NCBI GenBank assembly: GCA_034620365.1
Contig: JAQGEQ010000186.1
Location: 558,001 to 622,000 of the forward strand
Origin: Pegea sp. RAD2-039
Lineage: Eukaryota > Chordata > Thaliacea > Salpida > Salpidae
Direction: 5' to 3'
Length of the DNA stretch: 64,000 bases
Shown here: positions 25 to 43,000 of the stretch, piece by piece
Layout: each line of letters starts with the position of its first letter
Position numbering within the stretch: position 1 is the first letter of the stretch
Translations under genes and position numbers: made by a program
Notes under the pieces: generated by a model
The model's input: only the letters and a program-made list of their open reading frames with translations
The model's database searches: none
What the model was told of the DNA's origin: nothing

Positions 25-186
25 CACTCATGTCATAGTACACAGAGTCGTTACTTTCAGGTACAATGCGCCAGGGAACATGAACCTCCCCTTGGAGTTG
101 CTTTGTACGTACGACTCTCAACTTTACTTTATCCTTACTTTGCTTCACATCAACATCTTGATCTTTAAAGCTGATCACCGCATTTG
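25..186 (-). repeat. Calx-beta unit 20, first half (class D-like), cut by window edge
   Basis: One exon encoding AVISFKDQDVDVKQ, LRVVRTKQLQGEVHVPWRI and a Tyr-Tyr-Asp end, closing at a GTAAGT donor in phase 1. The C-half must lie to the left of the window, so the array and the gene continue. Confidence 0.75.
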
Positions 187-3100
187 CTGCACATCTCAAT
201 TTAGTCTTGATTCGGATTCATATATTCAACTCACCAATATCATTTTCTATGATGACGTCACACTCTGAGATCTCGTCTAGCGTCGCGAAAACGTTTTTAG
301 GTTCAATTAGACGAATAGTAAACTGATCTTGCTCTTCCTTCCTCGGAAACTGATCAATATCGATCTTTATATGAGAGACTTCTTCGCCCTTAGAAAAGGT
401 TTCAACTCCTGATAAATTGTTTCCAAAGTTTGCATCAAACCCTTCTTTTGGGGCGGATTTCCACAGAACCCGGATCTTCTCTACAAGATCAAAGATTTGA
501 TGAATATTTAGTGATAATTAGTTGATCTTACTGTCTGTATTGATCGTTCTATGAACTGGGATAACAATTTCTTCATCTGTTTGTTTCACTTTTACAACTG
601 GTTTCTCAAATCCAACCTTACCAGGTAAGATATCATTGATGATGCTTACATGGCATCGAGAAGCATTTTCAGTCAGCCCGAAGTCGCCTGTCGGCTTACC
701 AAGCACAACGCTGTAAAAATAATCGATTAATTTGCATCCAACATCAACGTAAGAAGTCCAACGTGAAGTTTTCAACAGGAAACTTTTGTGGCTCATCAAC
801 TAGTTCAATTTCTATATGACTTTCTTCTTCTCCTTCTTTAAATGTTTCTTGTCCAAACAGTTTCTGTCATCAAAATATCAGTTTTTAGATCTTCAAATTC
901 GTTTTTTTGCTTTTACTTTGTATGGAGAGGAATCAAGAGAGTCAGAAATACTCCAGGGAACTATTACACGCCCCTTAAAGTCATCAGATCGAAGAACTTT
1001 GATGGTTACGTGAGATTGACTTTGGTAAGACTCAATATTGAGATCAGCAAATGAAATTTCTCCACAAACAACTAAAAAAAGTTTCAAATTTTTCCGATAA
1101 TTCAAAAGTTAGGAAGAAGTCTTACCATCTTGGATTTCATAAGGTCGTTGGACTTTTATCTCAAATTTTTTTTCTTGAATAAAAAGAAGTTTGTTGATAA
1201 AGTTAAATAAAGAATAAATCAAATACCTTTAACATTGTTTAAGATCACTTGAGTGCTTTTGGATGATCCGATTTTCGCTCCCATTTCACTCTCAACCAGA
1301 TTCACGTTGAAATACATCTGATCCCCAGAAGGATCATTTTCAATCGGAATAGTGATCTCTTGTCTGTTCACAAGTTACTCAATAAAAATTATTTTAATTA
1401 AACAAATAAATACCTCGTTTCATCAGCAGCAAATTCTAGAACACCTCGCCAAGCGCGATAATGTTTTCCACGAATAGCAGTTCCTTCCTCGGCAGTCCAA
1501 GTAACTTGACAAGGATACTTTGAATTTCCACTCCTGGTTACAGGGATGGTGACTAGTTTACAAGTTGCTACAACTTCTATCTGATCACGCTCTGTTTCAA
1601 CCACCCCAGCATCTATCAACAACATAAACGTTGAAGGCGTTTCCTTTCAATTTCCACCTCACCTAAATCATTGTCAACGATTACTCTCGTTGTTGGTGAA
1701 TCCCCAAGAGCAACACCAGACTTTGATATAGGAGTCATTAAAGTAACATCAAATTGAACTTCTTCACTATCTTGAGGTTCATCATTCAGTTTGATGTCGA
1801 TGACTTTATCTACTTCCCCTTCTTCAAATATCAACTGTTGAAATATTTTGTTGAAGTTTGTTGAAAAAAATCAGTTTCTTTGTTACTTTTCCTTCCAGCT
1901 TGTTGTAAAAGTCATTCTCACTGACAGCAGACTTTGTGGTGGTTGTTGGTACAACCTCCACAAACCAAGGGACTTCTGCCGCCCCTTTACTTCCATTCTT
2001 ACGTCTGACACCGATCATTGCAACTCCTCTACTCTGTCGGACCTTAACACTAGGTGACGCCATGTTCACAACGCCAGCTCCTAAAAATAAATCTCAAAAA
2101 TAGTGAAGTAGGATGAAAGAGACAGGATCAGTACCTGCTACGTTTTCAATATTGATCTTTGCAACATCAATCACTCCAATTTCACCCGGGCCCCCATCAA
2201 CAACTTCTATAAGTTCACAAGCAAAAGATACATTCCCACCGGAAGTATCATTCATAATTGGAATGAGAATATCCTTTTTGGTATCACCTGGTCCAAATTC
2301 CACTCTTCCGTGTCCATCATCACCAATATAATTTTTCACGTCAGTCGCAGTTCCATCTGCGAGATATTTATTTGATATTTGATCTCATATATATAATGCG
2401 GAACCTTTAGTTCGATATCCAACTGCTATTGATCGGTATTTTGGTCCTTCTCGTAATAATGGGAGCAAGAAAACATCACAATCTCCCTTGACAGTGTATT
2501 CTGAATGTGAAAATCCAACAGAGCATTTAAGATCATTTTCAACAGTGATCCTTGCGCGATAAGGATCTTGAAGATCAGCTCTTCCATCAGGAGGAAGCAG
2601 AATTATAACAACTCTGTAAGTTTTAAATATTTTGATCATCTGTAAAGAAGAGATCGATACTTACTCTTCCCGTTCATCAACTGTATCTTCCGGGAACTTG
2701 ATCTCTATCTGACTTAAATCTTGTCCGTCTTCAAATTCAACAGTTCCTCTTTCATCAACAAGTGGAGATGTCGAATAAGCATCTGATGATGAGAGAATCT
2801 AAAAAGATTCAAAGATCAGAAATTTATTGGTTGAGATCAGTTGAAACTGACTCTCCAAGGAAGAGAAACGCATCCTTTTAATCCTTCACTCCGCAAAACA
2901 TTAACTCTTCCCTTTAATGAGCTCTGTTTGAAGTAATAATCACTCTTCTCAAGATGGAAGAATCCAGGAACTAGGAACAAAATTATAAATGAAGTCTGAA
3001 TCATCAATCATTTGATGAGTATACTCACAAACATCATTCACAACTACAGCTGATGTGTTCGGGTATTCCCCTAACATCGCTCTTCCCGATGGAGGGTCAA

Positions 3101-6100
3101 TTACAACCCTTAAATGGTCCACGGTGGTGTTTTGGACTTGAGGTGGTAGTTTTAGTTTGATTTCTTTTCAAAAATTAAGTTTTCGGTAAAGAAATGTAAA
3201 AACTTTAACAAATTCACCTTTCATTTCTTCACCATCTTCAAAAGCAATTGTTCCATTTGTTCCTTCATATCTCGATCGTGGTTTTCCTGGCATCCCTCGA
3301 ACCTGCCAGAAAGCAGTCACGATACCAGAAGAGTCCTTGTTTCGGAAGACAGGAAAAGATGCGACGCCAGCAGATTGTTTAAAAGAGAAATGATCACTCG
3401 CAAATGAAAGTTCACCGCGTGCTGTATAAACAATTTGAACATAAGTGACATTTTGTAAACTTTCTTTAAAAATTTGCTGTGAAAACTAATCAGCGATTTC
3501 TTTTGAAAGTAAATATTTATCTTAATCGTTTTTTTTTTCTCAATGAAACTAAGTGAAATATTGATGTATTTACTTAGATCATTTTCCAAGACAACTTTTG
3601 TCTCTTTTACATTCAGAGTAGCTCCTCCAGTTGGAGTTGAAAGATGAAGCTTAAAAGCACATTCGTCTTCTTCAAAAAACTCTACTCTCACTGGCATCAC
3701 TAAATGAATCTCTTTTCTCACTTCCCCATCACCAAACACTAAATTGCCTTCGCCAGGCAGATAATGCTTTCCGCCTAAAATGCAAACATCAAAAATAAAC
3801 AAAGTCATCAACAATTTAGTTTTGTCTGGTAACCCCACCTATTGCTGTGGCATCTTGTGTATACCATGACACAGTCACGTGACCATCTGCACCTGAAGTA
3901 CGTTGTACTGGAATCACTAAGCTTTCAGAGCTACATTTAAAGTTATAACGTGAACTTGGAAACCCAACAACTCCAGAATCTATTATGAAAGAGATATGTA
4001 AGGAAGGACCATAACTTTAAATTCAATTGACCTTTATCTCTTATTACAGTTACTAAGGTTACATCTAAACCAGTTGATATGTCTTGATCATCTGGCTCAA
4101 TCAGTTGTAGTTTGAAAGTAGCTTCTCTTTGAGGTAAGTCTCGCCTCAGAAGAATTTCAATTTCAGTTTCAGTTTGCCCATCTTCAAAAGTTATGGAACC
4201 TGGAAAAAATTGTTGGATTATTTGATACTTTTACCGAAAAATCCATCAAACTTTAGTGATAGAAATTTTAATAATAATAAATTGGTAATTACAACTAATT
4301 AATATTCGAGATGAAATCTTTCTCCTGATTACAAAACATTTTTATAAATTTTAAAACTAAACAGTTTTTCATAAAAAAAAATTCTAAAATTTGATCTCTC
4401 TTAAATTAGAACTAATTTTACCTGATCCCCAATCAATTGAATCTTCATCTTGTTCTGCAGAAGATACACTAAGAAGAGTTGACTGATTGAAAGTATCATC
4501 TTCATCCAGATTGCCTCCTGTGCCAGTTGATACATTTGAAGCATCATGACGTCTTATAGGTGTAAAATTATCAGCAAATAAAGGATGAAGATTAAAACTG
4601 ATCCAATCAATCTTCAAAGATCCGTTATTATTAGATCTTCTGACTGGTATCCTAGCAACTGGTTGAGACTGCCGGAAGAGATATCGCTTTCTCACAAACT
4701 CAACTTCCGTATCTGATGAAGTTTAGGAGTTGTTTATATGTTTTACATCTAACTTATTTGAAGATTATCATACCAAGTGAAGGAGCAGCTTTTTGTTCGA
4801 CTTCTTTGATGATCTCTGCAATGGAAGATTTCAAGATTTAAATTTTTTTGGTTGAACATTTTTTTGGTTGAATTTTTTTTACTGATCTAAATCTCGAAAA
4901 ATAAAACTAACTTGGAACTGGTTCAAGAATTACTTCTGTGCAGTTTGTATCTCCTAGCTTACCAGTGCCTCTAATGTCAGTCAACTTCACGAAGAAGTTA
5001 ACTGGAGAGGTATCTGATAACTGTAATACTGGGATCATAATCTTCTTCTTCGTTTCATATGGATCAAACACCATATTTCCTTTGATATAAAATCAAATGG
5101 TTTAGATAACATTTGATAGAAGTGGTTTTAATGCACCATTTATTTAAATTAAATGAAATAACTTTTGACAACAAATTAACTTTTTAAGAATTCTATAATC
5201 CGTAGAACAAAACGGATAAAAGATGACTTTGTTGGTAGTAATTTATGAGCTTGTAAGTTACCTGATCTTCCTAGAAAGTTGACATCATTCTTTGCAGAAC
5301 CATCTTCACTTTCCCATGCGACAAAAGTGACGTCATTCACATCACCATGACGTAATACAGTGAGCTCAACAATTTCAGCACATTTCAATTGCAGAGTTGG
5401 TCTTCTCATCACAATAGTTGGCACTTCTGTAAAATCAACAAATATTTGTGAGAATTTTTCACAAAAAAAAACAACTTTAAATAAACAAACCAGCTTCTCC
5501 AAGTATAGTTACAGTAGCTCTTGTAGATGAACCTAACTTCAAGGAGCCGTCTTCAGATGGAAGAAGAACCATCACAAACTCATCATTAGGCACTCCTTCA
5601 AGTGTGATCTCTATATTCTTTGTGACTTCTCCATCTTTAAAATCTAGAATTCCTTTTGCTCCTAATAAAGATCAAAATAAGATTTCCGGATATGACACAT
5701 ATGAGAAAGGTTTTTTCTGAGCTTCAACACCTCTAAAGTTACCTTCAAATGGAGATGGTTTATCCAAAGACTGGATTATCCATTGTACCTCAACATCACC
5801 ATCAGATCCTCCTGATCTTATGACAGGAACAACTCCGATTGGATTAGTTGTTCGGAACACGAACGATGTTTTGTTGAATTCAAACTGTCCTGATTCTGAA
5901 TAATTATCAAATTGACTTTTTATTTGATAATTTTTCAGCTAATTTTTTTAGAAAATAAGCTACAAAACTGAAATATTTTTTGTGAAAAACAAGACAGTTA
6001 AAGAATAGCATCTGAGGAATTTTAAACTTTAATAAAAGCTAAGATGTGGTAATTGTAATATAAGGTAAAGAATTGAAGCATTTTTGAGGTTACTCAATCT

Positions 6101-9100
6101 TAAGAAGCATCAAATAGTTTCTTTTAAGTATCGAAAAAGTAATATTACATTCGAAAACATTTTTAAACTAACCTCGAGCGCTAACAATTGAAACTACAGC
6201 AGTACTATTAGGTCCTAGCACCGATTTTCCGAATTCCGATAAAGAAGTATCATCATCTTTAAGATCAAGCTCAGTGTCGAGTCGAAGCGAAAACTCTTTT
6301 GCTTGAAGAGCTTTACCACTCAATAATATCTCAACAGTAGCACGAGTCACACCAGAATCAAATGTGACGTAATCCTGTGATGTTAGTGGATAAGATCAAA
6401 CTTATCAATCATACAAATCTTACATGGTAAGCTTCAAAATCGATCCCGGAAATTGCTGTTCCATCTATCGTTTTACAAACAGCAACTGCCTTTTTCTGGC
6501 AACTTCCGGTGCGGAGTAAAGGAATCTTAACGCTTTTAGAGTTTCCGATCTCTGAGTAAGATGTCTTGCTGAACTGGATTACACTTCGATCTATAAAATT
6601 GTTAAAAGATTTAAAGATATTCGTAAATAGGACTAATCAGACCTTCATCAGATAGAATGTAGATTGTAGCAAGACGTAATCCTGATTTGGCTCCTCCTCT
6701 GATCTTATACAGCTCCACATTGAATCGCTTCTCGCCGCTATCATCGCCACTTGCGTCCTTAAACTTCAACTCAATTTTTTCAGCAACCTAAAGATGAAAA
6801 ATAATCTTCAGAAGATTGTAGTGAAGATGAAGATGATAGGATCACTTGATTATGAGCGAATGTCAATATTCCGCTCCCTCCTTCGTAATCCTTCCCGTCT
6901 TTAGCGCTCCCTTCAACAGTACGCCATCTAGTGGTGACTTTTCCATCCATACCTCCTAATCGATGAACAGGGATCACAATGGTCTTCTCAGCTTGTCGGA
7001 TCGAATAAGTTGCTTTAGAAAATCCGAGCGTTCCAGCATCTGTAGATGAAGATTTTTATAATTGGTTGAAAGGATGAAGATAAAGATTTGAAGACCGATA
7101 TCGTTGAGGATTACAACTTGTGTCTTCTTCAATCCAAGTCTTAGGTCATCTTCATCTTGTACTTTGTCCCCAATGTCACTCTGCTCCCATTTAAGATCAA
7201 ACAAAGACACATCTGCGACAGTTTGAGATGTAGTATTTGCCCTTTTTGAAGCAAGAGGAAGAGTAATCTCCATTGTATTAACTCCTTCCTCAAAGAGCAG
7301 CTAAAATAAAGGATTTAAATAAGAAGAAGATGTGAGATAAGATCCTCACCGATCCACTAAATCGATCCTCTTCATCATCTGATGAAAGAGGTGATGATGC
7401 TGCTGTTGAAACAGAAACAGCAGAGATCGTTGACTTTCGTCTATCATCTTCAATCTCAAATAGTCTATCCAGATCATCTTCTAAATCACACTTCCAAGAT
7501 ACAATACACGATCCTTCAGTAGATGATCTATGAACTGGAATTCGAAGAGTCTGAAGAGATGATGCACATGAGCAACTTGTCACAGCGTCTATGTTTCAAT
7601 CAACTCACTTTTCCACTTCTACGAGCAATGTATTTAGATTTGGCAAACTCTACTGTACATGGTCCCGTCTGTAAGCTTGCAAATCCCAGTGGAACAGTTG
7701 GAACTAAAAAGAAGTTTTGAAAATAATTGGAATTGATGTCACAGAGTCGTACTCTCACCTGACGCTACACAAGTTATAAGAACTTGAGCCTGACCAATGT
7801 CACCAATCTTTGGACCACCACTTGATGAGTTTAGGACAGCTGTAAACACTAACTGTCCTATATGATTGGGGTCGTTATAAACAGCAATTTGAAGCTGTTT
7901 AGTCATCTCCTTAGCATCAAACACGACACTCATCTTTCCTCCTAAATATTTATCTTTTTGTTGATTTTGGAGAATAATTGACGATAATGTTACCTCTATA
8001 ATGTACTCCACTTGTTGCTGTCAAATCGTTTGTTTCACAAGTGACAAATGCTGTGTTTTCACAATTTCCACTTCTAGTGATTAGAAGAGTTACCTGTCCA
8101 CTAGTTGCTGTTACATCAAAGCTGGGTTGCGCAAACGACACAACACCTAAATCTGTATAAACCAACATCAGTTGAAATCGCTCAGTTCCAGCATTTAATC
8201 ACCTTCTTCAGCAAAGACTCTCACAAGAGCTTTAGACTTGTTTCCAAGTTTAGCTCCTCCAGTAGGAGGAAGCATACAAACCATGAATGATATATCATTT
8301 ATAATTTGATGTTCAGATAGATTCAAATCAATATTTTTACTAATTTCGCCGTTTTCGAAAAGTAAGTCTCCTCTAATTGACAACAATCCTGTAAGATGAG
8401 ATGAGACATCAGCAGTGAGTTTAAAAAGATCACGTGATTACCTTCAGGAACTTGGCCAATATTTCCGTTATCTTGAGCGAGTATCCAAGGAACTTTAATA
8501 TCACCATCTGATCCTAATGATCGGATCACTGTCAATCTTCCCAAAGTCTCATTTGATCTCATGATCAAGAGAGGCTTAGAGAACTCAAATAATCCAGGTT
8601 CTAAGGAATAAATAAAAGTTTTATGACTGAATCAACTTTAAGATCTGCTTAGATACCATCATCTTCAATAATAGAGATAGTTGCTGTTTGACTCTTTGAT
8701 AATTTAGTTCCTTCACTGGGATCACTTAAGATCACTCTAAAGGCGCGCCCTGTTGTTATGTACTCATCATTGTCGATGATAGGGATCTGTATATGACTTT
8801 CAAACGTCCCGTCTTCAAATGTCAAGACTCCCTGAAACAACAATCATGTTGAAGAGCATGATGATTCCAAACTAGTCCTCAAAGCAATCAACTTACAGAA
8901 GACTTTTCATAATCTTTGCCAGCTTTTGCTGTATCATCTTCTGTGTGCCATTTCACATTCGAAACTCCGCGAGTACTTCGTGTTCTTAACACATTAATTT
9001 CAGCGATTCCACAATTTTCTGATCAAAAAGATCAAATTAAAAACTAGAAGAAGACTGAAGATAATCCCTCACCCATAAACGGATAAGCCTCTTTGGGAAA

Positions 9101-12100
9101 CTCGACTAAGGGACATTCATCATCCGATAGTAGAGTCACCATACAATGAGCAAGATCTAAAGTAGCTCCACCTTTGACATCTTCAAGTTCAACATTAAAT
9201 GCCTTTTCACTCTCATCATATAGAAGATCAGATATCAGTTGGATCTCAATACTTTGAGTAACCTAGATCAAATCAGTCAGCTTATAATTATCTTCCTCAT
9301 CAAACTTACTTGTCCATCCGAGAAATGTAAAACACCATCACCAGCGATGTAGTGCTTTCCCGATATTGCGCTGATATCTCGAGTAAACCAAGCAACGCTT
9401 ACAGCACCATCCATACCAACAGTTCTATGAACAGGAATCACCGTAACTCCATCGTTTTCTTTGAACACGTAGCTTGGTTTTGGAAATCCAATTACTCCAG
9501 GATCTAAAATGTATTTTTAATCTCTTTAATCTTATTTTTAATGGATCGAACTGACCTTCATCTTCAATCACAATAACTTTAGTTCGTCGTAACCCAAGAG
9601 CAATACTTCTTTCTTGACCAAATAATTCCACCCAAAATGCATCTTGTTTGCCATCAAAGTCATTCGTTAGTGGGATTTCAATATTAGCAAAGTCCTCGCC
9701 ATCTTCAAAGCTGTAAGAGTTGTGTCTTAGAGCAGTGACTTTAGATGAAAAATAGAACTAACTATATGGTTCCGCTCCCATAATCTCTTTGTGATTGGGC
9801 GATTCCGTTTTTGCCTGTCTCATCCAAAACCTCGTATTCAACTCCACTTCTTGTAACACCGCTCTTCAAGTTTTCATCATCACTCAGAAGAGGTTTAGAA
9901 ATGTCAGAGAGCTCACTAAGAACAATTGAAAGATACAAATGATTGGTTTATTTGAAGTTTTTACAAACTTTTCCTGGGACTTCATCCGTTTGCGCATAGT
10001 TGTCTTTTGTTCACCGTGACTCAAAACCTCAAAGTCATTATCTTCAGGAGAACCTGAATAAGTCCTCCATTGAACTCTTGTCTCTCCTTCAGTGAATGAT
10101 CTCCTAACAGGGATCACAGCCACTTTTGCACTCTTTCTCAACAAGTACTTGGCTTTTATAAACTCCAGCATGTTACCTGTCATCGTTTTATCAAATTTAT
10201 TTATTTTTTTGTGCTTCAAACTCAACAATCTTCAAATTTTTTAAATAATCTTACCCATGGTTGGAAGTGGTATACTTCTTATAAAAGCTTTTTCTTTTTC
10301 TTTATCAATTGCATAAATACAACATCGCCAGCAACATAACAGTAACAACCCAATCAGCAGGAACAGTAAAAATGCCCATAAGATTATCAGAAGAGAGTAT
10401 GAAGCCTTACACCCTAAAACAGATAGAAGTGACTAGATCTGAAGAAGAACTCCAAATAAAAACATTTGAAGCTTAGTAAGGAATAAATTTCTTATCGGTA
10501 AGTATATCTAGTTGTCTTGTGGACTGTTTTAATAGATATTTCATAAATTAATCTACAAAATATTTTCAAAATAAAATATTTATCTAAAATATCTCAAAAT
10601 TGTTTAACAAGTAAACTTCCAATACTTTTCTCATCTTCAGCAATAATCTCGATTTCGTCTCCTTTACTTGAAAATCCGTAATAGTATTTACAGCCATCTT
10701 GTTCATCAACTCTACTACATAAAGTAACTCCAAGATCTTTCAAATCTTCCTCTGCACAAATTTAAATCAGAAATATTCTCAACAAGTTTTAATATCTGAC
10801 CATCATTTAGTGAATTCACTTTCTGTGGTGTTATCTGATTTTTTCCCTCACATTCTTTTGAGCAATTTTCTTTTTCTTCTCCACTACGAAACATAATGCA
10901 TTTGACACAATGTTCAAAAAGTTCACATTCAGGGCAAGTCTGAAAAGATGTTTCTAAAGATTTCAATTGAAACAGATGATTAGTTTATCTACCTTATTGG
11001 AAGTTTCACTGGCAACACAATCAGCACAAAGTGGTCCCGTGAAACCATCTTTACACTGGCATATTCCACATTTACAAACACCATTTTCACTACAAACATC
11101 ACCAGCAGAGTTCTTGCAGGTTTCTAGAGATGTAGAACAACTACAATCTTCATCTTTCCAACCCTCATCACATTCACATCTACAAGAACACTCCCCAAAT
11201 GGTGTTGGTCTGAAACCGCAACAAATAAATTTGAATCATCAACTTACGCCGAATAACGTTCTTACGTTCCGTGATTTGAACAAACCAAATTTGCTACAAC
11301 TGGGCACGTGTCACACTGACAAAACTGACCAGTGATTGATCCCTTTATATGCTTGTATCCAGGATCACAGATGCAATTCCCTTTAAAGCATATACCTCGA
11401 CCTTTGAAAAGCAGCAATCTGATTGGTGGATGCTAATTGTAGACAGCTACAATTTACCTGAACACTCTTCTACGTCACCAGGCGCTACACACCCAAGCGG
11501 AATCGTACTAATTTCACATGACTGCCCTGTCCAGCCAGCAGGACAGAAACAAATGCCGCAAGAGAAGTTACCTCTATCTTGACATTTATTACTGTTTTCC
11601 TGCAAAAAAATTCAGTTAATTGTTTGAAAAAAATCAATATTTTAGACTTGCAATAACAGTCGAAGAACAATCGAAAGCTCCGAGGATTTTTGCTTCTATG
11701 GGAAGAACTTGTTTATGTTTTCGTGTTTTAACAAGGATTTGTCCAGGTTCACACGAAGATTGTCCATCACATGAGTCCTTGTGGGCGTTTAACATCATTT
11801 GGTAAGAGACCTGAACAATTTCAATAAAATAAATTCAGTCTTTAAAATTTAAAAAATTGTTTTTAATGTGAATATTTTGCTTAAAAAGTAAATTTAGTAA
11901 AAGAAATATCATTTTATAAAATTATATCTATTAAAACAAATCAACATCAAACCCACCATGTAAATAAAAGATTTTATCTGTTTATGTAAGCACTATGTAA
12001 TCAGAAATATTTACATTTGCAGTTATTGCTTATTTATCTAACTTGTATTCTTTGTATTTATCATTGAATAATGAAAATATTATTTTCTAATATAGTAACC

Positions 12101-15100
12101 AAGTTATGTTTTGTTACTAACTAAGTTTCCTGATTTTAATCCATCAATATAAGCATCATCAATTCCACGAATGATAGATCTTCCACTTGTAGGTATTGAG
12201 ATGTTGTACCACAAACAAAGGGCTTCGTTATTAGGATTGTCAGTTAGCAGTTGTTGTTGTCCTAAAAACAAAGCAAGTTAGCTAATTTAATTATCTTATA
12301 TTTAAAACGGTTTTACCAGATACAGCTGAGTAGGCATCCTCAATTAAATCCACAATATTGCTAGAATCATTTTTCAATACACCATAAGTTGATCCTCGGA
12401 AAACGTTCTTTGATACAAACTAGAACAACAAGGTTTTATTGTTGTGCATCATATACACAATACGTTTGTTGATTGTTTGGTGGTATGCTTGAAATAGTTT
12501 TTTCAATCGAATCTTTATTTTACTAATATTTACTAAACTTTTACTACCACGTGTGAAGGTATCGATCTTGAATCAGAGTAAGTGAGTCAGGTTTTCAATT
12601 AAATGAGAAATTTTTGCGGTTAATTAAGAAGATATATTTTTATAAGTTCTTAGTTTCAATTTGATTTTGGTTAATATTATTTATCAAATTTGTATGTGCG
12701 AAAATAAAAATAAGAAAAAGAATTTCAACTTGGAAATGAAATTCTTAAACAATTTTTTTCATTTAAATTCAGATAAAATATAATTTCAGTAAATCATCCA
12801 AAAATTTGAAAATATAAAATGAGTTCTTACTTTATACAGCTCCTTGTAATTTTTGCCAATAGCAAATATAGGGGTGATGGAACTATTTTCAAGCGCTCTC
12901 ACAACTTGATTAACTGTTGGGTAGTCCTGATCACCCGCCCCAACAAATCTAGAAAAAAACCAAACCTTAAACTCTATTTGAATTATCAAAATTCTTTCGG
13001 CTAATTAGAATTTTTTAGTAAAATTATTCAAGCAAAATAAACCTAAAAAACTAATTCTTGGTGCTCAAATTTAGCTGGAAATTTTCCAACTGCATACATT
13101 TACACTAGCGTGTATGCTATTAATAAAAAGAATGATGAATCTACTAACTTTCCTTCACTATTTGTGTGGCATTCACCATCGTTTTTACGAGTAAATCCTG
13201 CCAATACTCCCATGCCATCACCACCATAATGATAAGCAGACTCAGTAGCAATTAGCATCAAACGCAAAGCATCCTCTTTCCAGCCAACCAGATCGCCACA
13301 TTTGGCTACTTGTAACATGGCATCTAAGGCAGCTTCAGGTGGATCTGCATTTCCAGATACCTTGACTGCACTAACTACTTCCTCAAAAAGTGTAACATTT
13401 GATGTCAACTCAATTCTACTCTCGAATAGAAATGGTGACTCGGTATCATTCCCATAAGGGTGCATCAGTCTGTAAATTTAGTTTTAGATACAAAATGTTT
13501 ATCTTTTTTCAAGTGTGCTCACTTATATGGAGTGGTTTGAGTCATCGGAGTTCGAACCTTATCAACAAAAGTCCCAAATCCGATTCTGACGTTTTCACTT
13601 GATCCTTTTGTGAGACTTATAAGTGTATCAACTAGAAAATAAATCCAATTTTAATTGAAAGCCAAACTATATTTATGTTTGAAACCTATTTGGCCAGCTA
13701 ACTTTTCAACCATTTCTAAATCATCTTTCATACTATATGACAAGTCCATAAGATAATATAAATCAACTGGATATATCTCAGGTTCTTCGACATTGAAACT
13801 AACAGCTACAGTATCGCCAACGCGAATACTTGCCTAGAAGTGGGAAAAAGAAATTAGAGGTTTGAAGCAACCAGAAATTTCTAATTTTACTTATTACTAT
13901 TTTATCATAATTTATTATTTATAAATGTTTAAGATTAGTAGAAGAGTAAACAAACAGATTCTTCTCCTAATGATCATCAGTTTTTTGAGGCAGATTATTT
14001 ATGGAACCTTAGACGAAATATATGATGCTTTACGTCAGCTCTTGATATAGAGCTAGTTACTACTCTTGTTTGACGTCACATTTGACTTCAGACGTACAAA
14101 TGGTAAACAACAATACTGTGCAGATGGTCTTAGTATTTAAATAATATCACTTACAGTATTTGAATGCTTAGAATATTTAATGGAATCAAAAAGAAATAAA
14201 CTTGGTAAAATGTTTTCAAAATAAAATCTTTGTTTAATTTGTTTGTTTTTAATTAAATTGTAATTATCATTATAGAAGTAAAGAAACTTACTGAAGAGTA
14301 AGAGATACTAAATCTGCCTTTAAAAGATTTACTGTATGAACTTGAAAATATCGTTTGTATATTGGAGCAGTTTTGGTCCGAAAGCTCGTCTAATATGTTA
14401 CAACGTTTTTGTATAAAGCTCTGAAAAAAATAGAAATATTTATTAGAAATATGATTTATTCTTGAAGAATTTACTAAATTGCTGAAATATTTGAAATGCA
14501 CTTAAGCGATTATAAGGAGTTGCTTCATATTGTGCAAGAATTTTGAAAGATATAAAAAAAAGAATTTTTATTATATGATTAGAAATAAGTTCCTAAAAAT
14601 GTCAGAATTGTTTGCATCCAAGCTATTATACGCCTGACTAAATGCTATTTAAATTATTGTAGTAAGTAATAAACTTACAATGTTTTTGGTTTCAAAATCA
14701 AATAATGAAGATCAAACCTTGAAAAGAACTTTTCCATAAATTTTGTAAACAAGTGGAAGCAATTTTTCAAATTGTATAATTAAAAAGCAAGTGAATGTCC
14801 TAATAACCTTTTTATCTTGAATTTTATTCTTTATATATTTGTGTGTGACAAAGTAATTTGGTTCAAATTTACTTAATTGGTGTAAAATATGAAAGAATTA
14901 GAACTCAAAAGATCAGAGACAGGATACTAAGACCCAGACTTTGTTTCCAATCAAATGTTAGTGAGTGAAATGACATTTAGAAAGATGACTAGAAAGCGAA
15001 ACTTTGAATAAAAACATGTCATATACTTGATACTAAGCAAGAGAGTTTCTGATAAGATACTGACATAAACCACACGATTTAATTCTAAAATTTCAAACTC

Positions 15101-18060
15101 TTTAAATAGTATGTAACTGTAAAGAATATTTTCTAAAAGATTACTGAATCCGTAAAAAATAGATTACCTCATTTGAGGATATGCAAATTATAAAGTTGGG
15201 ATTTAATGAAGTTTAATCCGAAATATTTCAGGCATTTTTCAGCCTCACGAAGCTTACATTTAATTAATAAAAATTAAACGTGAGTCAATGTTTTAGAAAA
15301 ACCGAAATAATTTAATAATAATTATTAAACTTTTGAATATAAAAGATAAACAAAACTGTTTCAAATCAAGTGAATAAATAGAAATGTCTAGGCACCTCCT
15401 GAGCACACCATTGACATTCTGGATTAGCTTTAATACAGTCTGAAGGAAGTGTAGCCTCATTACAAATATTAATGAGTTCTTCTCGCGAGTAAAAACCAGA
15501 ATAGTAGGAATATCCATACCCATACCCACTTCCACCATAACCCCATCCAGAGCTAGCTGAGCATATATTAAGATCTACAAACACAAACAGGATCACATTA
15601 AAGATAAACTAATTGATAAAAGCGCTTGTTTAGATGTAAAAGAAAATAGTTTGAATTTTGGGAAATATTTTAACGCTAAATATGGACAGATTAAATGAAA
15701 CTATTAAATTTGTTAAGTAAATAAAACACGATACTGTTCTGTAATAGTCGTTTAATATAACAACTGTTGTGGTTATCATTTGCAAATAGAATTATAAGTT
15801 TGGAAAATACCATCAAATTGAAATGCAAAAAACGCTTCAGTAAAAGTGAAACTTTTTTAAAACATGTTTTGATATATATACTTTACATTTTTGTATCTGC
15901 AGTTTTGAATTATAGGCTTAAAAGTGAAGTAAAAAATAAAAGTGATCAAAGTAAATGACAAGTTATTAATTGTTTTCTTATTTTAACATTAACATTTGTT
16001 ATAAGTATTCTTGAAATTTATTAAAATCTAAGAATAAAAAAGCAAGTTTATAAACTTTCTATAGTATTTACAAATGCAAATAGCTAAACAGTTAGAGATT
16101 ATTTCAAAGCTTAGATATAATTGTGTAATCAGTTTCTAAATAGATAATTGTGACAAATATATGATATATTGGTTTGGATTTATATCGTCTGGCTTACATC
16201 AAGTTTTAGTGCTTGAAAAATTTCACAAAATAATTTTGAAGCATTTTAAAGAAAACTGTACGTGACTTTAGATAAACTGGTAATAAATATTTAGCAAAAC
16301 TAGATTAAAGAATTTTCAATGACTATAAATCTTTAAATAAAGTCTTTCATGCATAACACAAGTATATTGCTCACTAAGGTTAATAAATATTGTCAAAATT
16401 TGTTAAAACTTAACAAGATATTTCAATTAGAGCAAAGTTAATTAGACTAATGAAATCAAAATTTAAACTTTTGTTTAAAATTGTTTTTATTTTAGATACA
16501 AGGACAATGGAATATATTGTAATATTTCAAAAATAGTTTTTCGAAACAAAAACACTAATTACTGTAAAATATGCTGTTTAAAATCAAATTTAGTTGGTTT
16601 AAAACCAAATATTTAACTGTTTTTAGCTTTAAACTTAACTTTGTAATCTTACAAATAAAAACTAAGTGAAAGAAATTGGTAAATATTCAAATATAGTGAT
16701 AAATAAATTAAATAATTGAGATTAATTAAGGACAACAGACTTTTAATTCAAATCTGTCTGAACAAGTTTTGAAACCAACAAAGATTTGAATAGAACAAAA
16801 AAATCTTGGCAATATATTGTCGATGAAACTTGATGTTTAGGGCGTACCTGGTTTTATTTTGAATATCTAAAGACTATGATTTAATTGTCAAGATTAAAAA
16901 AAGGGTTGTTAGATTATTTAAGAATTTTATTTGTAAGTTTATTTATGATTCACTTTTTCTGATTTTAGTAAACAGTAGTTTCTTATCAGCAAAACTTTTA
17001 TATTTAATTTTTTTATTTTTTAACACAGCTATAATTTATAAATAAAATCAAAATTTTAAAAATGGGCGAAATGTATTTTAGCTTTAGGAAAATAAGATTT
17101 TTTTCAGTTTAAAAATCAGAAATATTTTTAATAAGTCAAAATAAACTAAGAAACGTAAAAAATTAGAACCACAACTTTTCTTACAAAAGAAAGACAAAAT
17201 AAAACTTAGATATATGGTTGAAAGTTTAATCCAAATATTCAGAAGGTAATTATCTAACAAAATTGTAAATGTAAGCCACTATCGTAGCTTAAGGCTAATA
17301 TTACTTGATGAAATAAAACTTATAAAATACTTTAAAGTATTAACACGATATAAAAAGCGCCAAATTCAAAAAATTAATCTGAAAAATATTTTTATTTTAA
17401 TACAATTTTTTCTCATTTAATAAACAGATGATAACAAGAAATAAGAAAAATATTACATATATAGGTTTTGGTTAGTGCAAAAATAAACTTTGTTAATATA
17501 ATCATGTTGGTATAATCACAGTTTCAAGTCAAATTTGAAAAATGGTAGCCACTTCAAAGCTCTATTTTTTATGTTTATGATTTTATTAGTCATTTTATTC
17601 ACAAACCAACTATCTCAATTGAAGAGGGGATTTCCCGTTTAGTTAACTTGCTTGCCTATATCACGTAAGTCGGACGCAGTCATGTGGAACAAGTTAGTCG
17701 ATATGACTTTGACCTTGCTGCAAATTACGCAGATTCAAAAAACTCTAAAACAACCCCGTAATGGAAATTTGCACTTTTTATTTGCTGAAGATATTCGTTG
17801 AAACAAATCTCAGCTATTGTAAACAAGGCAAGATTGAAAATAAAACCTTCAGGCTGTATTTATTGAAAACAATAATGAAAGTTTGAAATTAAATATTTTC
17901 AGAAGCTAGATAAAGTTTAAGTTTTCATCAACAACATCAACTTCATCAATATCGAATATTTGAAATTCTATTTACCTTCAAAAGTTTTCTCTTCAGCTAC
18001 AGATAGTTTTAAGAAGATCAGAAGAAATAAGAGAACTCCAAAACCATGAGAAGGACTCAT
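25..18060 (-). CDS. Integrin beta subunit with giant Calx-beta cytoplasmic tail (3' end outside window)
   Basis: Cell-surface adhesion receptor subunit. ATG at 18060 opens a signal peptide (MSPSHGFGVLLFLLIFLKLS). The exons up to the membrane are 17976-18060, 15396-15574, 14292-14420, 13686-13833, 13523-13631, 13149-13469, 12831-12948, 12317-12419, 12122-12261, 11658-11810, 11458-11599, 11266-11401, 10993-11209, 10801-10939, 10617-10751 and 10255-10413. Together they total 2413 nt in one unbroken frame, about 804 residues. Order: PSI, beta-I with MIDAS DLSYS, cysteine-rich stalk, beta-tail, one membrane helix. After it come about 2,100 residues of tandem Calx-beta domains, continuing beyond the left edge, so the protein exceeds roughly 2,900 residues; a typical integrin beta has about 800. 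Vertebrate ITGB4 is the known integrin with a Calx-beta domain in its tail, but it has one. The membrane-proximal HDRRE motif and NPxY talin site are not visible at their usual place. Start and ectodomain are secure; some exon edges within the array are approximate. Confidence 0.93.
235..616 (-). repeat. Calx-beta unit 19 (E-like)
   Basis: LPGKVGFEKPVVKV, EEIVIPVHRTINT, then KKIRVLWKSAPKEG, SKGEEVSHIKIDIDQF, FTIRLIEP and CDVIIENDIG. Phase-1 donor at 234/235. Confidence 0.78.
617..1173 (-). repeat. Calx-beta unit 18 (class D-like)
   Basis: Short leading exon (FEIKVQRPYEIQD), then ISFADLNIESYQSQSHVTIK, VLRSDDFKGRVIVPWSI, ETFKEGEEESHIEIEL, ENFTVVLGKPTGDFGL and VSIINDI. The intron near 700-780 is modelled from a GTTGGA donor (NFT/VVL junction), the only phase-compatible choice I found. 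Runs into unit 19 without a boundary intron. Confidence 0.75.
1227..1612 (-). repeat. Calx-beta unit 17 (class E)
   Basis: DAGVVETERDQIEV, VTIPVTRSGNSKYPCQVTW, EEGTAIRGKHYR, GVLEFAADET, ITIPIENDPSGDQMYF and VILNNVK. Very similar to units 5 and 15 in the TRSGN and NDPSG motifs. Confidence 0.82.
1663..2080 (-). repeat. Calx-beta unit 16 (D-like, with Thr-rich insertion)
   Basis: GAGVVNMASPSVKVRQSRGV, VRRKNGSKGAAEVPWF, a short threonine-rich stretch (VVPTTTTKSAVSEND), then LIFEEGEVDKVIDIKL and VIVDNDLG. It mixes the class A feature RR with the class D feature KGxxxVPW. Confidence 0.78.
2135..2547 (-). repeat. Calx-beta unit 15 (class E)
   Basis: CSVGFSHSEYTV, LLPLLREGPKYRSIAVGY, DGTATDVKNYIGDDGHGRVE, DTKKDILIPIMNDTSGGN and INIENVAG. 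The TKK-IxIP and NDxSG features group it with units 5, 10 and 17. Confidence 0.8.
2548..2970 (-). repeat. Calx-beta unit 14 (class D)
   Basis: VPGFFHLEKSDYYF, VNVLRSEGLKGCVSLPWRI, GTVEFEDGQDLSQIEIKF, IILLPPDGRADLQD and ITVEND. Shares the LLPPDG turn with units 4 and 9 and the KGxVxxPW pattern with units 18 and 20. Continues directly into unit 15 within an exon. Confidence 0.82.
3029..3421 (-). repeat. Calx-beta unit 13 (class C-like)
   Basis: RGELSFASDHFSF, SFPVFRNKDSSGIVTAFW, YEGTNGTIAFEDGEEM, IDPPSGRAMLGEY and VVVNDV. Assignment to class C rests mainly on its position in the five-unit order and is weaker than for the other classes. Confidence 0.78.
3574..3979 (-). repeat. Calx-beta unit 12 (class B)
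   Basis: DSGVVGFPSSRY, LVIPVQRTSGADGHVTVSWY, GKHYLPGEGNLVFGDGEV, TPTGGATLNVKETKVVLEND. Terminal END motif kept. Third copy of the unit 2/7 type. Confidence 0.87.
4032..4815 (-). repeat. Calx-beta unit 11 (class A)
   Basis: VEFVRKRYLFRQSQPVARIP and VRRSNNNGSLKIDW, then a long Asp/Ser/Thr-rich insertion of about 60 residues (including STGTGGNLDEDDTFN), then SITFEDGQTETEIEILL and VIRDKG. The largest of the three class A insertions. Confidence 0.8.
4912..5426 (-). repeat. Calx-beta unit 10 (class E)
   Basis: EVPTIVMRRPTL, LTVLRHGDVNDVTFVAWE, EDGSAKNDVNF, MVFDPYETKKKIMIPV and LTDIRGTGKLGD. The terminal acidic motif is replaced by VILEPVP. Intron inside the unit between 5089 and about 5250. Confidence 0.75.
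5491..5895 (-). repeat. Calx-beta unit 9 (class D)
   Basis: ESGQFEFNKTSF, VVPVIRSGGSDGDVEVQW, GILDFKDGEVTKNIEITL, MVLLPSEDGSLKLG and ILGEAG. Clear copy of the unit 4 type, sharing RSxGSDGD and the LLP motif. Confidence 0.83.
6173..6590 (-). repeat. Calx-beta unit 8 (class C)
   Basis: DRSVIQFSKTSY, VKIPLLRTGS, IDGTAISGIDFE and YVTFDSGVTRATVEILL, then an extended, acidic C-half loop (LDTELDLKDDDTSLSEFG). Ends VSIVSARG, without the acidic terminal motif. Confidence 0.78.
6643..7039 (-). repeat. Calx-beta unit 7 (class B)
   Basis: DAGTLGFSKATY, IPVHRLGGMDGKV, TRWRTVEGSAKDGKDYEG, GILTFAHNQV, EKRFNVEL and ILSDEG. Near-duplicate of unit 2 over its whole length. Confidence 0.87.
7096..7703 (-). repeat. 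Calx-beta unit 6 (class A)
   Basis: VEFAKSKYIARRSGK then LRIPVHRSSTEG, followed by a serine- and acid-rich insertion of about 45 residues (including STAASSPLSSDDEED), then LLFEEGVNTMEITLPL and VVILNDIG. The insertion lies at the same place as in units 1 and 11. A short intron ends at an acceptor just before ACTCTTCG (about position 7551). Confidence 0.8.
7759..8152 (-). repeat. Calx-beta unit 5 (class E)
   Basis: DLGVVSFAQPSF, LLITRSGNCENTAF, ATSGVHYRG and AVYNDPNHIG. It ends ITCVASG rather than in an acidic E-(N/D)-D motif, so the terminal calcium ligands look lost. Resembles units 15 and 17. Confidence 0.82.
8203..8600 (-). repeat. Calx-beta unit 4 (class D)
   Basis: Begins EPGLFEFSKP; has LTVIRSLGSDGDIKVPW, LLFENGEISKNIDL and CMLPPTGGAKLG. 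Matches units 9 and 14, including the LLP/MLP turn. The usual GxxY loop is replaced by a short Gly/Asn-rich segment. Phase-1 intron at both ends. Confidence 0.83.
8657..9117 (-). repeat. Calx-beta unit 3 (class C)
   Basis: A textbook unit: EINVLRTRSTRG, VKWHTEDDTAKAGKDYE, SGVLTFEDGT, IPIIDNDEY and terminal IIEDDG. The acidic ends are of the kind that coordinate calcium in the Calx-beta domains of the sodium-calcium exchanger. Ends in phase 1. Confidence 0.88.
9118..9503 (-). repeat. Calx-beta unit 2 (class B)
   Basis: Starts DPGVIGFPKPSY and contains IPVHRTVGMDG, SGKHY, GVLHFSDGQV, EKAFNVEL and LLSDDE. It is very close to units 7 and 12. The second exon (9073-9263) runs on into unit 3 without a boundary intron. 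Confidence 0.85.
9556..10176 (-). repeat. Calx-beta unit 1 (class A)
   Basis: First domain after the membrane. N-half has YLLRKSAKVAVIPVRRS and VQWRTY; C-half has FEDGEDFANIEIPL and IVIEDEG. A linker rich in Lys/Arg and then Ser/Asp (about 60 residues) splits the two halves. Exons 9969-10176, 9763-9915 and 9556-9710. Confidence 0.8.
10255..10413 (-). other. Integrin transmembrane exon and short juxtamembrane linker
   Basis: Encodes one hydrophobic helix of about 22 residues (LLIILWAFLLFLLIGLLLLC) followed by a basic, cysteine-bearing stop-transfer segment CWRCCIYAIDKEKEKAFIR. The canonical integrin HDRRE-type motif is absent, and only some 25 residues separate the helix from the first Calx-beta domain. 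Topology follows from the N-terminal signal peptide and the single helix: everything encoded below 10255 faces the cytoplasm. Confidence 0.88.
10617..10939 (-). other. Integrin beta-tail (membrane-proximal ectodomain)
   Basis: Two exons, 10801-10939 and 10617-10751, separated by a 49-base intron. The first begins TCPECELFEHCVKC, a standard start for the beta-tail domain. The second carries VTLCSRVDEQDGCKYYYGF, matching the family's C..(D/E)..C.FY pattern. It ends in phase 1 and joins the transmembrane exon as Arg-Cys-Lys. Confidence 0.85.
10993..11810 (-). other. Integrin cysteine-rich I-EGF stalk
   Basis: Four exons rich in cysteine with I-EGF spacing, for example CGICFCPAGWTGQSCE, GNCICDPGYKHIKG and CGICQCKDGFTGPLC. 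In integrins this stalk transmits the bent-to-extended conformational change. The junction FDCSST/ENSNKC uses a donor at 11657/11658, the only phase-compatible choice I found. Confidence 0.88.
12122..13833 (-). other. Integrin beta-I (VWA-like) ligand-binding domain and end of hybrid domain
   Basis: Six exons encode the family's hallmark sequences: YPVDLYYLMDLSYSMKDDLE (MIDAS, DxSxS), VSGNADPPEAALDA (matching the conserved SGNLDSPEGGLDA that supplies metal ligands), CGDLVGW, NDGECH, QDYPTVNQVV and PIFAIGKNYKELY. All the metal-site acidic residues that I can align by eye are present, so the domain should bind divalent cation and ligand. The last exons (12317-12419, 12122-12261) lead back into the hybrid domain. 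Confidence 0.92.
14071..14078. promoter_or_regulatory. CRE octamer in an integrin intron
   Basis: TGACGTCA in the intron between exons 14292-14420 and 13686-13833, inside a GC-richer patch (14030-14110) that stands out from its AT-rich surroundings. Confidence 0.4.
15396..15574 (-). other. Integrin PSI-region exon with Gly/Tyr-rich insertion
   Basis: Contains the PSI cysteine pattern (NICNEATLPSDC then CQWC) expected at the N-terminus of integrin beta chains, where it helps keep the receptor inactive. Between the first cysteine and the rest sits an unusual run of glycine, tyrosine and serine (GWGYGGSGYGYGYSYYSGFY). The following exon, 14292-14420, carries RCNILDELSDQNC and completes the region. 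Confidence 0.8.
17976..18060 (-). other. Integrin first exon: start codon and signal peptide
   Basis: The exon encodes a 28-residue start with a leucine/phenylalanine-rich hydrophobic core followed by SVAEEKTFE, typical of a secretory signal with cleavage near SVA. It ends in phase 1 at a GTAAAT donor. The next exon (15396-15574) begins after TTTGTAG and restores the frame as Asp-Leu-Asn-Ile-Cys. The intron between them is about 2.4 kb. Confidence 0.85.
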
Positions 18061-40000: not shown

Positions 40001-43000
40001 TAATTTCGAGCATTTTTAATAATCAAAATCCATTAAAATCAAGTTCAAGTAAGACACAGAAAGACTCAAGTCTGAATCAAATATCTCTTATCTAAGTTTT
40101 ATCTTGAAAAAATAGAATAAATGCCCTGGGCAATAAAACGTTCAACAAATTCATCAAGTTCTTATTTAACTTATGTTTCATTGTTCAACGTTTTTCTATA
40201 CATGTAGTCGAACCTCTTAAGAGTTTTGGCAAGCTTTTAAAAAGTTTTTTACACTTATACCCAATATTTCAAACCCAGATAGTTTATTCAGTTTTAAAGC
40301 TCTTCAATTGAAAAGAGTATTTTCACTTAATTAGAAAGAATAATTTCAGTCTATTTTCTTACTTTAAAAGTCATTATCCAATCATAGCTAGGTACCAGTT
40401 CCCAAAAGTTCTAATTTGCGTGAATATCTTATTTTAAAGGGTTTATATTCGCTAGTAAAGATAACTTTTGAAATATGTTCATGATGAGTATTCCAAGATG
40501 AGCAAGAACAATTTTCAAAAGCTTAGATAGTCTTTTATTATTAGCTTGCTACTGTTGTGTGAGTTTAGCTTAAGTCTTGTTAAAATTTTCTAGGAATGCT
40601 TTTGTTGATTTTAAAAGATTTATTATTCTTTAAAGAAAGGTAAAGTTAGATTATTATAGAATTCCTGACTAATTAAAAACTAAAGTTTTCCTACACACTA
40701 CTTTCAAAAAAGTTTTTAGGCCTACTTATCGTATGTTTGTGTTAATCTAATCATTAAATAATAAATACAAAGAAAGGTAAACAATTGACATCTAATATAA
40801 ACAAAGTTGAAAAACTTCTATAGGGCTTTTTGGAAACACTTGAAGGCTTTTGTTAGTAATTACTTGTTGAAATTTACAATCAAACCTTTTGTTTATTGAT
40901 TAAGTTCATTGTAAAAACTTTTCTTTAATTCATTTCATTATTAATTTCTAAGCTATGACGTTTTGCAAAACGTTAAAAACATTTCTAATGAAATTTAGAG
41001 TCAAATCATGAATTTAGCTTTTAATTATAAAAAAAGATGAAATAAGTAAAACTTATCTATTAGTTAGAAGAGTATGAAGGTAGGTATTGAGGAAACCAAA
41101 TAAAACCTTTGAATGATTACTAGTTCAGTTTTTCAGACAATTTGTCATTCTTAATGCTTGATTTGATCAGTAAAAGCTTGATGAGTTGATTTGAAACGAG
41201 TTGTCTAAATTGAAATAAGTGTAGATATACAAGAAATATTTTTATAGATTAACTTTAAACAGAAAGAATCAAGCTTACAATGATTAATTCAAAGCATTCT
41301 AACTTAATATACCTATATCTTTATATTAACTAGTAATTTACATGAATATGAGGATGACAACTATAAACAAAACTGGAATTGTTGTGTTTTTATCATTTAA
41401 AACATAAAAAAAACGATCTAATCTTAAATTAACATAAGGAAAGAATGCTATAGAGTTTGTTTATTCCGTTGTTTTTGGGCGATTAGTTTGTTTTTAGATG
41501 GAATTCTCTTATGTATATGATTTTGGGATGAAATTTAGTTTAATCAAATTTTTTAGTATCATTCATAAAAAGATTCTGTCAAATAATTGACATCACAAAA
41601 TATTAATCACTGAATAGCTGTATATTTCCTTTCAAACTTATTTGTCGTTTTTTTACTTCTGATTCATTTTTCAAAAAGTTTTTTTTAGCTGATACACTCG
41701 ATAACGCTTTCTTTGTCATACATCATTGAACATTGCTAGTGCCACGCTTCAGTGCTTTTCTTCGTTTTATTCACAGTACTCAGCTTAGAAAGCTAACCAG
41801 AGACCGTGTAGATATCAAGACAGATGTGGTTAGATTAGAAAAATCGAATTTTCAATTTAGTATGCTTGTTAATTTTATGACTGTCAACCTGTGAGGTAGA
41901 CGACTAAATTTGATTTGAAAATCTTGTTATGAAGATTCATATTTTGTAGTTTTAATTACAAATTTATGCTTCAATTAGAAATAGTTGTATTATTTTAAAG
42001 ATTATTTCGATAATTTTTTATAATTATCTGATAAATAATCCTTAAAATTAATTTGAAGAAAAATAAAAAGGTCTTCATAATCACAAGATTTTTTTTTGAT
42101 CTTTAGGAAGAGAGAAACAAACTTACTATCTTCGGAACGTCCAAGATCATGGCATGCATCTAAGCATACTGAAGCAGAACTAAATCCTTCTCTCAGTCAG
42201 ATTACAATGAGATCGCCCTATAACCCGAATCCGTTGACATCAAAACGTCGATCAAAAGGTTGGATGGAGTCCGGTGACCTACAATCCACTTACACATCAC
42301 GTGACTCCCTTCTATCGTCCAATACTAGCATCTCTAGACTGAGTTTATCTTCAAGTGGATTGAGTTCAGAACGGATGTCAGCATCCAGAAGTAGCCTAGA
42401 GAATCTCGATAATGTGTCAGTGACGTCATCACAGCTGAGGTCGTCGCATCGCGCGACTCGGAATTCGCGAATCAATACTGCTGGAATTGTGACGAAGAAT
42501 AAAAGTATGTTTGAGCAGCTCTGTCAACAAGGCAACTTCCGCCAGCATCGCGGCTCACAAGATCAGCTAGATAAGATCGAAATCGCGCATCGACGTCATC
42601 AGAGCAACATAGAGGATGACGTCATAAACTCGCGCGCTAATGGTTATATTACGCGGAAGACGTATTCACCTACTTCCAGTACAGTGAGGACATCTGGTTC
42701 TGAAATAGAACCAAGAAGATCTGGAACTGAGTATAAATACGCGGATGCAAAGATTGTGAAAACATCTACTCTTGAAAGACGTCAACCATCAACTACATCA
42801 CCTGATCCTCCAATCCGGGACTCTAGTATCGAAAGATATAAGATGCGAATAAAGTCACGAAGTACAAGCTCATCTAGAGTGAGTCTTTAATGATATTTTT
42901 TTTATTGTTTTAACTTTCTAATTTTTACAGGAAGATGATCCATCTTCTAGAAGAGTCTCATCTTCTTCACATGAGATTGTTGCAAGAGCTGTTAATGACA

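Follow-up and report, generated by a model that had tools for sequence, protein, structure and literature searches.

The gene described here lies in a 64,000-nucleotide stretch of the genome of the salp Pegea sp. RAD2-039 (assembly GCA_034620365.1, 105.7 Mb; contig JAQGEQ010000186.1, here C8, positions 558,001 to 622,000; hereafter the window). An integrin beta gene on the minus strand starts near window position 15,540, takes up the leftmost 15.5 kb of the window and runs on past its left edge, the window holding only about one-third of the gene and of its domain array. We consider it probable, at roughly 0.7, that this gene encodes a tunicate counterpart of integrin beta-4 whose cytoplasmic tail has been enlarged by tandem exon duplication into a rod of ~72 Calx-beta and 14 fibronectin type III (Fn3) domains, acting as an intracellular tether from the matrix to plakins and intermediate filaments.

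To extend the window leftward we added the flanking sequence C8:520001-558300. The second version of our exon-chaining gene finder returned a single minus-strand gene at C8:573538-526518 with 165 exons. A score bonus was then placed on the transmembrane (TM) exon, on the exon after it and on the final one, and four stop-free introns were split by hand; this gave a final model of 169 exons, which encodes 10,573 residues (~1.17 MDa) with zero internal stops and in which every intron is GT-AG, with a median length of 54 nt. The array extends 31 kb past the left edge of the window to a stop at C8:526518 (window coordinate -31482), and the 102-kb stretch covering the locus has no N. The 5′ end of the model is incomplete: its exon 0 is in the wrong frame, a PSI-domain exon, recognized by eye, lies in a frame that the model does not connect, and no signal-peptide exon was found. 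Exons of 73, 107, 129, 132, 189 and 277 nt are probably mis-bounded. An initial annotation, made on the window alone, had proposed an integrin beta subunit joined to a very large Calx-beta tail, far longer than its ectodomain, between positions 25 and 10413 and unfinished at the window edge. Both positions are exon edges of our model, the extension reached the C terminus, and the tail after the TM exon comprises 9,921 residues. The same annotation had the frame continuous from signal peptide to array; the passage from the TM segment into the array stands, but in place of one continuous frame there is a chain of short-intron exons, to which no signal-peptide exon could be added.

The ectodomain is that of an integrin beta subunit, with a betaI (VWA) domain, EGF modules and a single TM segment (Pfam Integrin_beta, E = 2.2e-62; EGF_2, E = 3.5e-5). 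Its closest matches in the PDB are beta-1 chains (best 60 of 61 matches), and the alignment to human integrin beta-1 crosses both beta-tail and TM helix and reaches the start of the cytoplasmic part. The hydropathy of the TM exon (KD19, 3.23) is the maximum of the modelled protein; by the same measure the tail contains no second TM-like segment, its best window reaching 1.84. Five integrin beta loci were found in the genome, one on C8, two on C258, and one each on C114 and C4. The ordinary short NPxY tail (Pfam Integrin_b_cyt, E 0.1) gave six matches, located on C114 and in two regions of C258, and none on C8. In the gene models, the tail motifs read NPMY (C4), NPIY (C114) and NPLF (first C258 gene), the two C258 genes being fused in one model that does not separate out the tail of the second. 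Among these loci the long tail belongs to the C8 gene. The beta-4 tail is described, in the available part of a review (PMC4452579), as having no similarity to the tails of other beta subunits.

The far end of the tail points to beta-4. When the last Calx-beta domain and the last two Fn3 domains were compared with the PDB, 216 sequences matched and the top six were integrin beta-4 (E = 4.5e-24 to 2.2e-23), followed by RPTP-sigma at 2e-17. Four of these six are FnIII-1,2 constructs that align across both Fn3 domains, while the remaining two, ranked first and fourth, are FnIII-3,4 constructs, both halves of which align with the last Fn3. Aligned directly to the human domains, the last Fn3 shares 42% identity with FnIII-2, 38% with FnIII-3, 35% with FnIII-4 and 24% with FnIII-1; for the penultimate Fn3 the figures are 25% with FnIII-1 and 18-19% with the other three. 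The other 13 Fn3 domains of the tail are 15-26% identical to human FnIII-2. In addition, the last Fn3 carries R/E/R at the positions of human R1225, E1242 and R1281, the only one of the 14 to hold all three, and among human FnIII-1 to FnIII-4 this combination occurs in FnIII-2 alone. We take E1242 to be a plectin-contact residue. Plectin binding is abolished by the FnIII-2 mutations R1225H and R1282W (so printed; R1281W elsewhere in the available text of the same review, PMC4452579). The Fn3 pair is followed by ~150 residues rich in Ser, Thr and Lys, then the stop, with AATAAA 20 nt on. From the stop to C8:510001 there is no Fn3 match better than E 1.9 and no Calx-beta match better than E 0.26.

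Between the membrane and this Fn3 pair lies the array. A domain hidden Markov model (HMM), grown from the protein's own repeats, so that its counts call for some caution, gave 74 Calx-beta and 14 Fn3 hits over the tail. Because two pairs of hits are the halves of one insert-split domain each, we count ~72 Calx-beta domains; a further likely domain was recognized by eye in a 142-residue gap. Within the window, 22 HMM hits correspond to ~20 Calx-beta domains (two pairs again being halves), the last of which crosses the left edge, in keeping with the 19 or more of the initial annotation. Pfam agrees, with whole-sequence Calx-beta E values of 3.2e-44, 1.3e-59 and 2.6e-77 for the in-window array pieces. 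Two stretches individually passed E 0.01 in the piece after the TM segment and four and eight in the rest of the window array, 14 in all; a 971-residue exon gave four, the one repeat unit of ten that was submitted gave four plus one fn3, and the C-terminal piece gave three plus two fn3. These Pfam figures count individually passing stretches and are lower bounds. All 14 Fn3 domains lie outside the window, and the initial description of a tail made only of Calx-beta is superseded.

Ten repeat units, each of one Fn3 and four Calx-beta domains, lie between C8:557352 and 534803. Nine of the ten follow a nine-exon model with lengths 161-121-152-101-176-402-174-168-168; four match these lengths exactly, and five depart from them in one to four exons. 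Between units, nucleotide identity averages 63-69% at eight of the nine exon positions and 76% at the ninth, that of the 402-nt exon, which together with its upstream neighbour is partly homogenised between units. The units at C8 555177, 552154 and 545685 have a near-identical intron before the 402-nt exon and a near-identical start of that exon, with their other exons at ~65%; this is likely a local patch of gene conversion. Across 182 exon pairs, repeat copies differ at frequencies of 0.395, 0.267 and 0.596 at codon positions 1, 2 and 3, a concentration of differences from which it follows that the repeats are under selection as protein. The same pattern rules out a pseudogene. Cysteine makes up 1.2% of the tail compared with 6.9% of the ectodomain. 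An extracellular array of the aggregation-factor kind is likewise rejected, as the array follows the integrin TM segment, has no second TM segment after it and is poor in cysteine.

The initial annotation suggested a calcium-responsive rod linking matrix to cytoskeleton. We scored the nine acidic positions of fly CALX CBD1 in the 63 full-length Calx-beta domains, shorter or interrupted domains being excluded; where an extracted domain stopped short, its row is missing the final three positions, and for such rows the acid counts are lower bounds. Six of the nine positions are kept in two domains, the second and third from the membrane, whereas the other 61 keep five or fewer, and 58 of the 63 keep three or fewer. 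At the same positions the Calx-beta domain of human ITGB4 has two acids, and a gene on contig C15 of the salp, which we label exchanger-like, has eight and six in its two Calx-beta domains. Searched against the PDB, the first three Calx-beta domains of the tail match Na+/Ca2+ exchangers best. As so few domains retain the calcium-site acids, the rod as a whole is unlikely to be calcium-responsive, and we mostly reject that part of the proposal; a long rod between matrix and cytoskeleton remains plausible.

In the arrangement that we propose, the ectodomain would pair with an alpha chain and bind extracellular matrix. The Cys-rich juxtamembrane segment would lie at the membrane together with the first Calx-beta domains, of which a pair has calcium-site residues. 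The array would then form an extended intracellular tether, ~0.3-0.4 micrometres long if straight, given the domain lengths that we assume, and the distal Fn3 pair, with R/E/R at the plectin-contact positions, would dock a plakin and through it intermediate filaments. The cytosolic placement of the rod, its length, its mechanics and its binding to plakins are thus predictions. The genome does contain plakin-repeat and intermediate-filament genes, with 19 matches to each kind of sequence, some of the latter below the cut-off. Matches to an intermediate-filament rod lie on the same contig as the giant integrin, at C8:627261-629015 on the minus strand, ~5.3 kb to the right of the window. More tentatively, and with somewhat less than even odds, the protein may be an integrin that carries its own titin-like intracellular rod (>80 folded beta-sandwich domains, >1.1 MDa), which would place a plakin-binding site hundreds of nanometres from the membrane and tune the force between matrix and intermediate filaments, calcium sensing being confined to the two membrane-near Calx-beta domains.

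Two joins of the gene model are predicted from sequence, that between the beta-tail exon and the TM exon and that across window 10254-10177. The donor of the former is among the three weakest of 168; at the latter, the donor ranks near the median, with 81 of 168 scoring lower, and the acceptor is weakish, with 28 of 168 scoring lower. When breaks were forced into the gene model, none of 158 outscored the single gene, with or without the TM bonus, and the median loss was 39 units. We take one gene with one transcript to be most likely, since a gene end plus a promoter would scarcely fit between the halves of a split gene and since the array has a beta-4-like far end. Two separate genes would comprise an integrin of ordinary length, ending '...LPTMGKII' within the intron after the TM exon, and a giant cytosolic Calx-beta/Fn3 protein starting at an ATG at window 10183. 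Indeed, if the TM exon is read through, a stop comes at window 10243-10241; AATAAA is present in the intron, and an in-frame ATG stands 7 nt before the acceptor. However, both of the latter are weak signs because they recur in other introns of the model, AATAAA in 18 of 150 short introns and a readable in-frame ATG in 14 of 168 introns, this one included. The two reading frames would be only 57 bp apart (stop at C8:568241, ATG at C8:568183), too little to accommodate both a gene end and a promoter easily unless an operon is assumed, and the donor is of ordinary strength. A free-standing protein would also leave the ITGB4-like far end of the array unexplained, and the beta-4 orthologue of Ciona likewise has Calx-type open reading frames just 3′ of it, as stated in the available part of PMC1145181. 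We regard two genes as improbable, and give the same low standing to a single gene with alternative ends, in which retention of the 78-nt intron would yield a short-tailed receptor and its splicing the giant, so that a cell could switch between a plain and a tethered integrin. The read-through stop, the AATAAA and the weakish acceptor would suit such a switch, but an in-frame stop within 60 nt of the donor is found in 134 of the 168 introns, and being so usual it does not single out a retained form here.

The number of repeats could also have been inflated or collapsed by assembly error, the true tail being much shorter or longer. One repeat exon is 98% identical between two units, and three units share a near-identical neighbouring intron; the units are nevertheless too diverged, at the mean identities given above and in a stretch without N, for most copies to be assembly mistakes, and we consider this very unlikely. 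Several observations weigh against the single beta-4-like receptor. The gene finder is home-made, with penalties that we set ourselves, and was trained on the same locus, and the bonus was given to counter the mis-splicing of the TM exon in unaided runs. If both forms receive the bonus, the break between the TM segment and the array, which is the split required by two genes, costs 7.2 units, the third cheapest of 158; without any bonus it costs 11.5 units, the tenth cheapest. Once the bonus is removed, the path through the TM exon scores ~18 units below a mis-spliced path that skips it (6319.4 minus 40 vs 6297.4), which we attribute to the unusual composition of a hydrophobic exon. Although the region aligns to human beta-1, Pfam did not report Integrin_B_tail at E 0.01. 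The human beta-4 ectodomain is absent among the best 60 of 61 PDB matches, where beta-1 is nearest. With no good Fn3 match from the stop to C8:510001, a counterpart of FnIII-3,4 was not found there, and single-sequence AlphaFold gave no usable model for the 971-residue exon (mean pLDDT 32).

Comparison with known systems places the gene closest to ITGB4, from which the initial annotation had thought it very different. Both have an integrin ectodomain, a single TM segment, then Calx-beta, then an Fn3 pair, in the same order, and the single Calx-beta domain of ITGB4 is low in calcium-site acids, as are most of those here. ITGB4 has one Calx-beta and four Fn3 domains in a tail of more than 1,000 residues, according to the available parts of PMC4030831 and PMC4452579, compared with ~72 and 14 in ~9,900 residues here, and its FnIII-3,4 pair was not found in the salp gene. 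The Na+/Ca2+ exchanger domains CBD1 and CBD2 share the cytosolic Calx-beta fold, and Calx-beta 2 and 3 here resemble them in their acidic positions; however, the other full-length domains do not, and there is no exchanger part. Long tandem Calx-beta arrays occur in ADGRV1, FRAS/FREM and sponge aggregation factors, where they are extracellular, in contrast to the present array, which follows the TM segment of a type I receptor. The genome holds more Calx-beta array genes, at C16:28370-51849, C1:4968686-5021943 and C6:3563826-3555617 (L020-L024), which by eye resemble ADGRV1 and FRAS/FREM.

The nearest precedent is in another tunicate. Ewan et al. (2005, PMC1145181) placed integrin beta-5 of Ciona intestinalis as orthologous to vertebrate beta-4 and mention open reading frames of Na/Ca-exchanger type within 10 kb on its 3′ side ('data not shown'); in the accessible text of that paper the authors could not establish an extended tail for certain. 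Ciona has five beta chains, as there are five beta loci here, but that text gives no domain count, no Fn3 and no giant array for its beta-5. Given this report, the kind of protein is already known and it is the giant array that is new. A 2024 survey of 22 animal genomes, Ciona among them, lists the Calx-beta/Integrin_B_tail pair as vertebrate-specific in its available part (PMC11788884); the C8 gene would fail this pair test, since Integrin_B_tail is not reported for it. Tandem Calx-beta copies number 3 to 41 across taxa in the part available of a 2009 paper (PMC2805694). Among the matches listed in a literature search of titles and abstract openings, which covered few subscription papers, no tandem Calx-beta array in an integrin tail appeared. 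The salp gene indicates that a beta-4-type tail, with Calx-beta, Fn3 and plectin-contact residues, exists outside vertebrates, and so has a bearing on the origin in time of hemidesmosome-type adhesion. A further suggestion is that giant modular rods inside the cell, a design best known from muscle proteins, can be part of an adhesion receptor.

The coordinates of the gene within the window are given in Table 1.

Table 1. Parts of the giant integrin beta gene in window coordinates
Position	Strand	Feature	Basis or remark
15396..15538	-	PSI-domain exon, in frame with NICNEATLPSDCIKANPECQWCAQE	Read by eye; upstream limit uncertain
10617..13833	-	Ectodomain exons: betaI (VWA) with DLSYS motif, EGF-like modules, beta-tail	Pfam and human beta-1 alignment
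10255..10413	-	TM exon, Cys-rich at its inner edge (LLLLCCWRCCIYAIDKEKEKAF), phase 1 at either end	Hydropathy, beta-1 alignment
10177..10254	-	Predicted 78-nt intron from TM exon to Calx-beta array; AATAAA, in-frame stop, in-frame ATG near 3′ end	
9556..10176	-	Calx-beta 1: three exons, serine- and acid-rich insert	
8657..9503	-	Calx-beta 2 and 3: only two of 63 keeping six of nine CBD1-type acidic calcium-site positions	
25..8600	-	Calx-beta 4 to 20; beyond the window ~52 more Calx-beta, 14 Fn3 and the Ser/Thr/Lys-rich C terminus	

The genome is that of a tunicate. It encodes, in one gene model, a cellulose-synthase-like glycosyltransferase fused to glycosyl hydrolase 6, a fusion that is a tunicate hallmark, together with homeodomains that we take to be one of Cdx type, one of Xlox type and two of posterior-Hox type. 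These findings rule out a sponge, as the initial annotation had supposed the source to be. Apart from the integrin gene, four open frames of the window drew no Pfam hit at E 0.01. Two long open frames of 269 and 260 residues, at 42081-43701 on the plus strand, have no match at this threshold. On contig C1, positions 737623-836319 contain fn3-filled single open frames of 6,547, 4,777 and 3,610 residues, and within C1:752777-769928 a block recurs in apparent near-copies every 4.2 kb.

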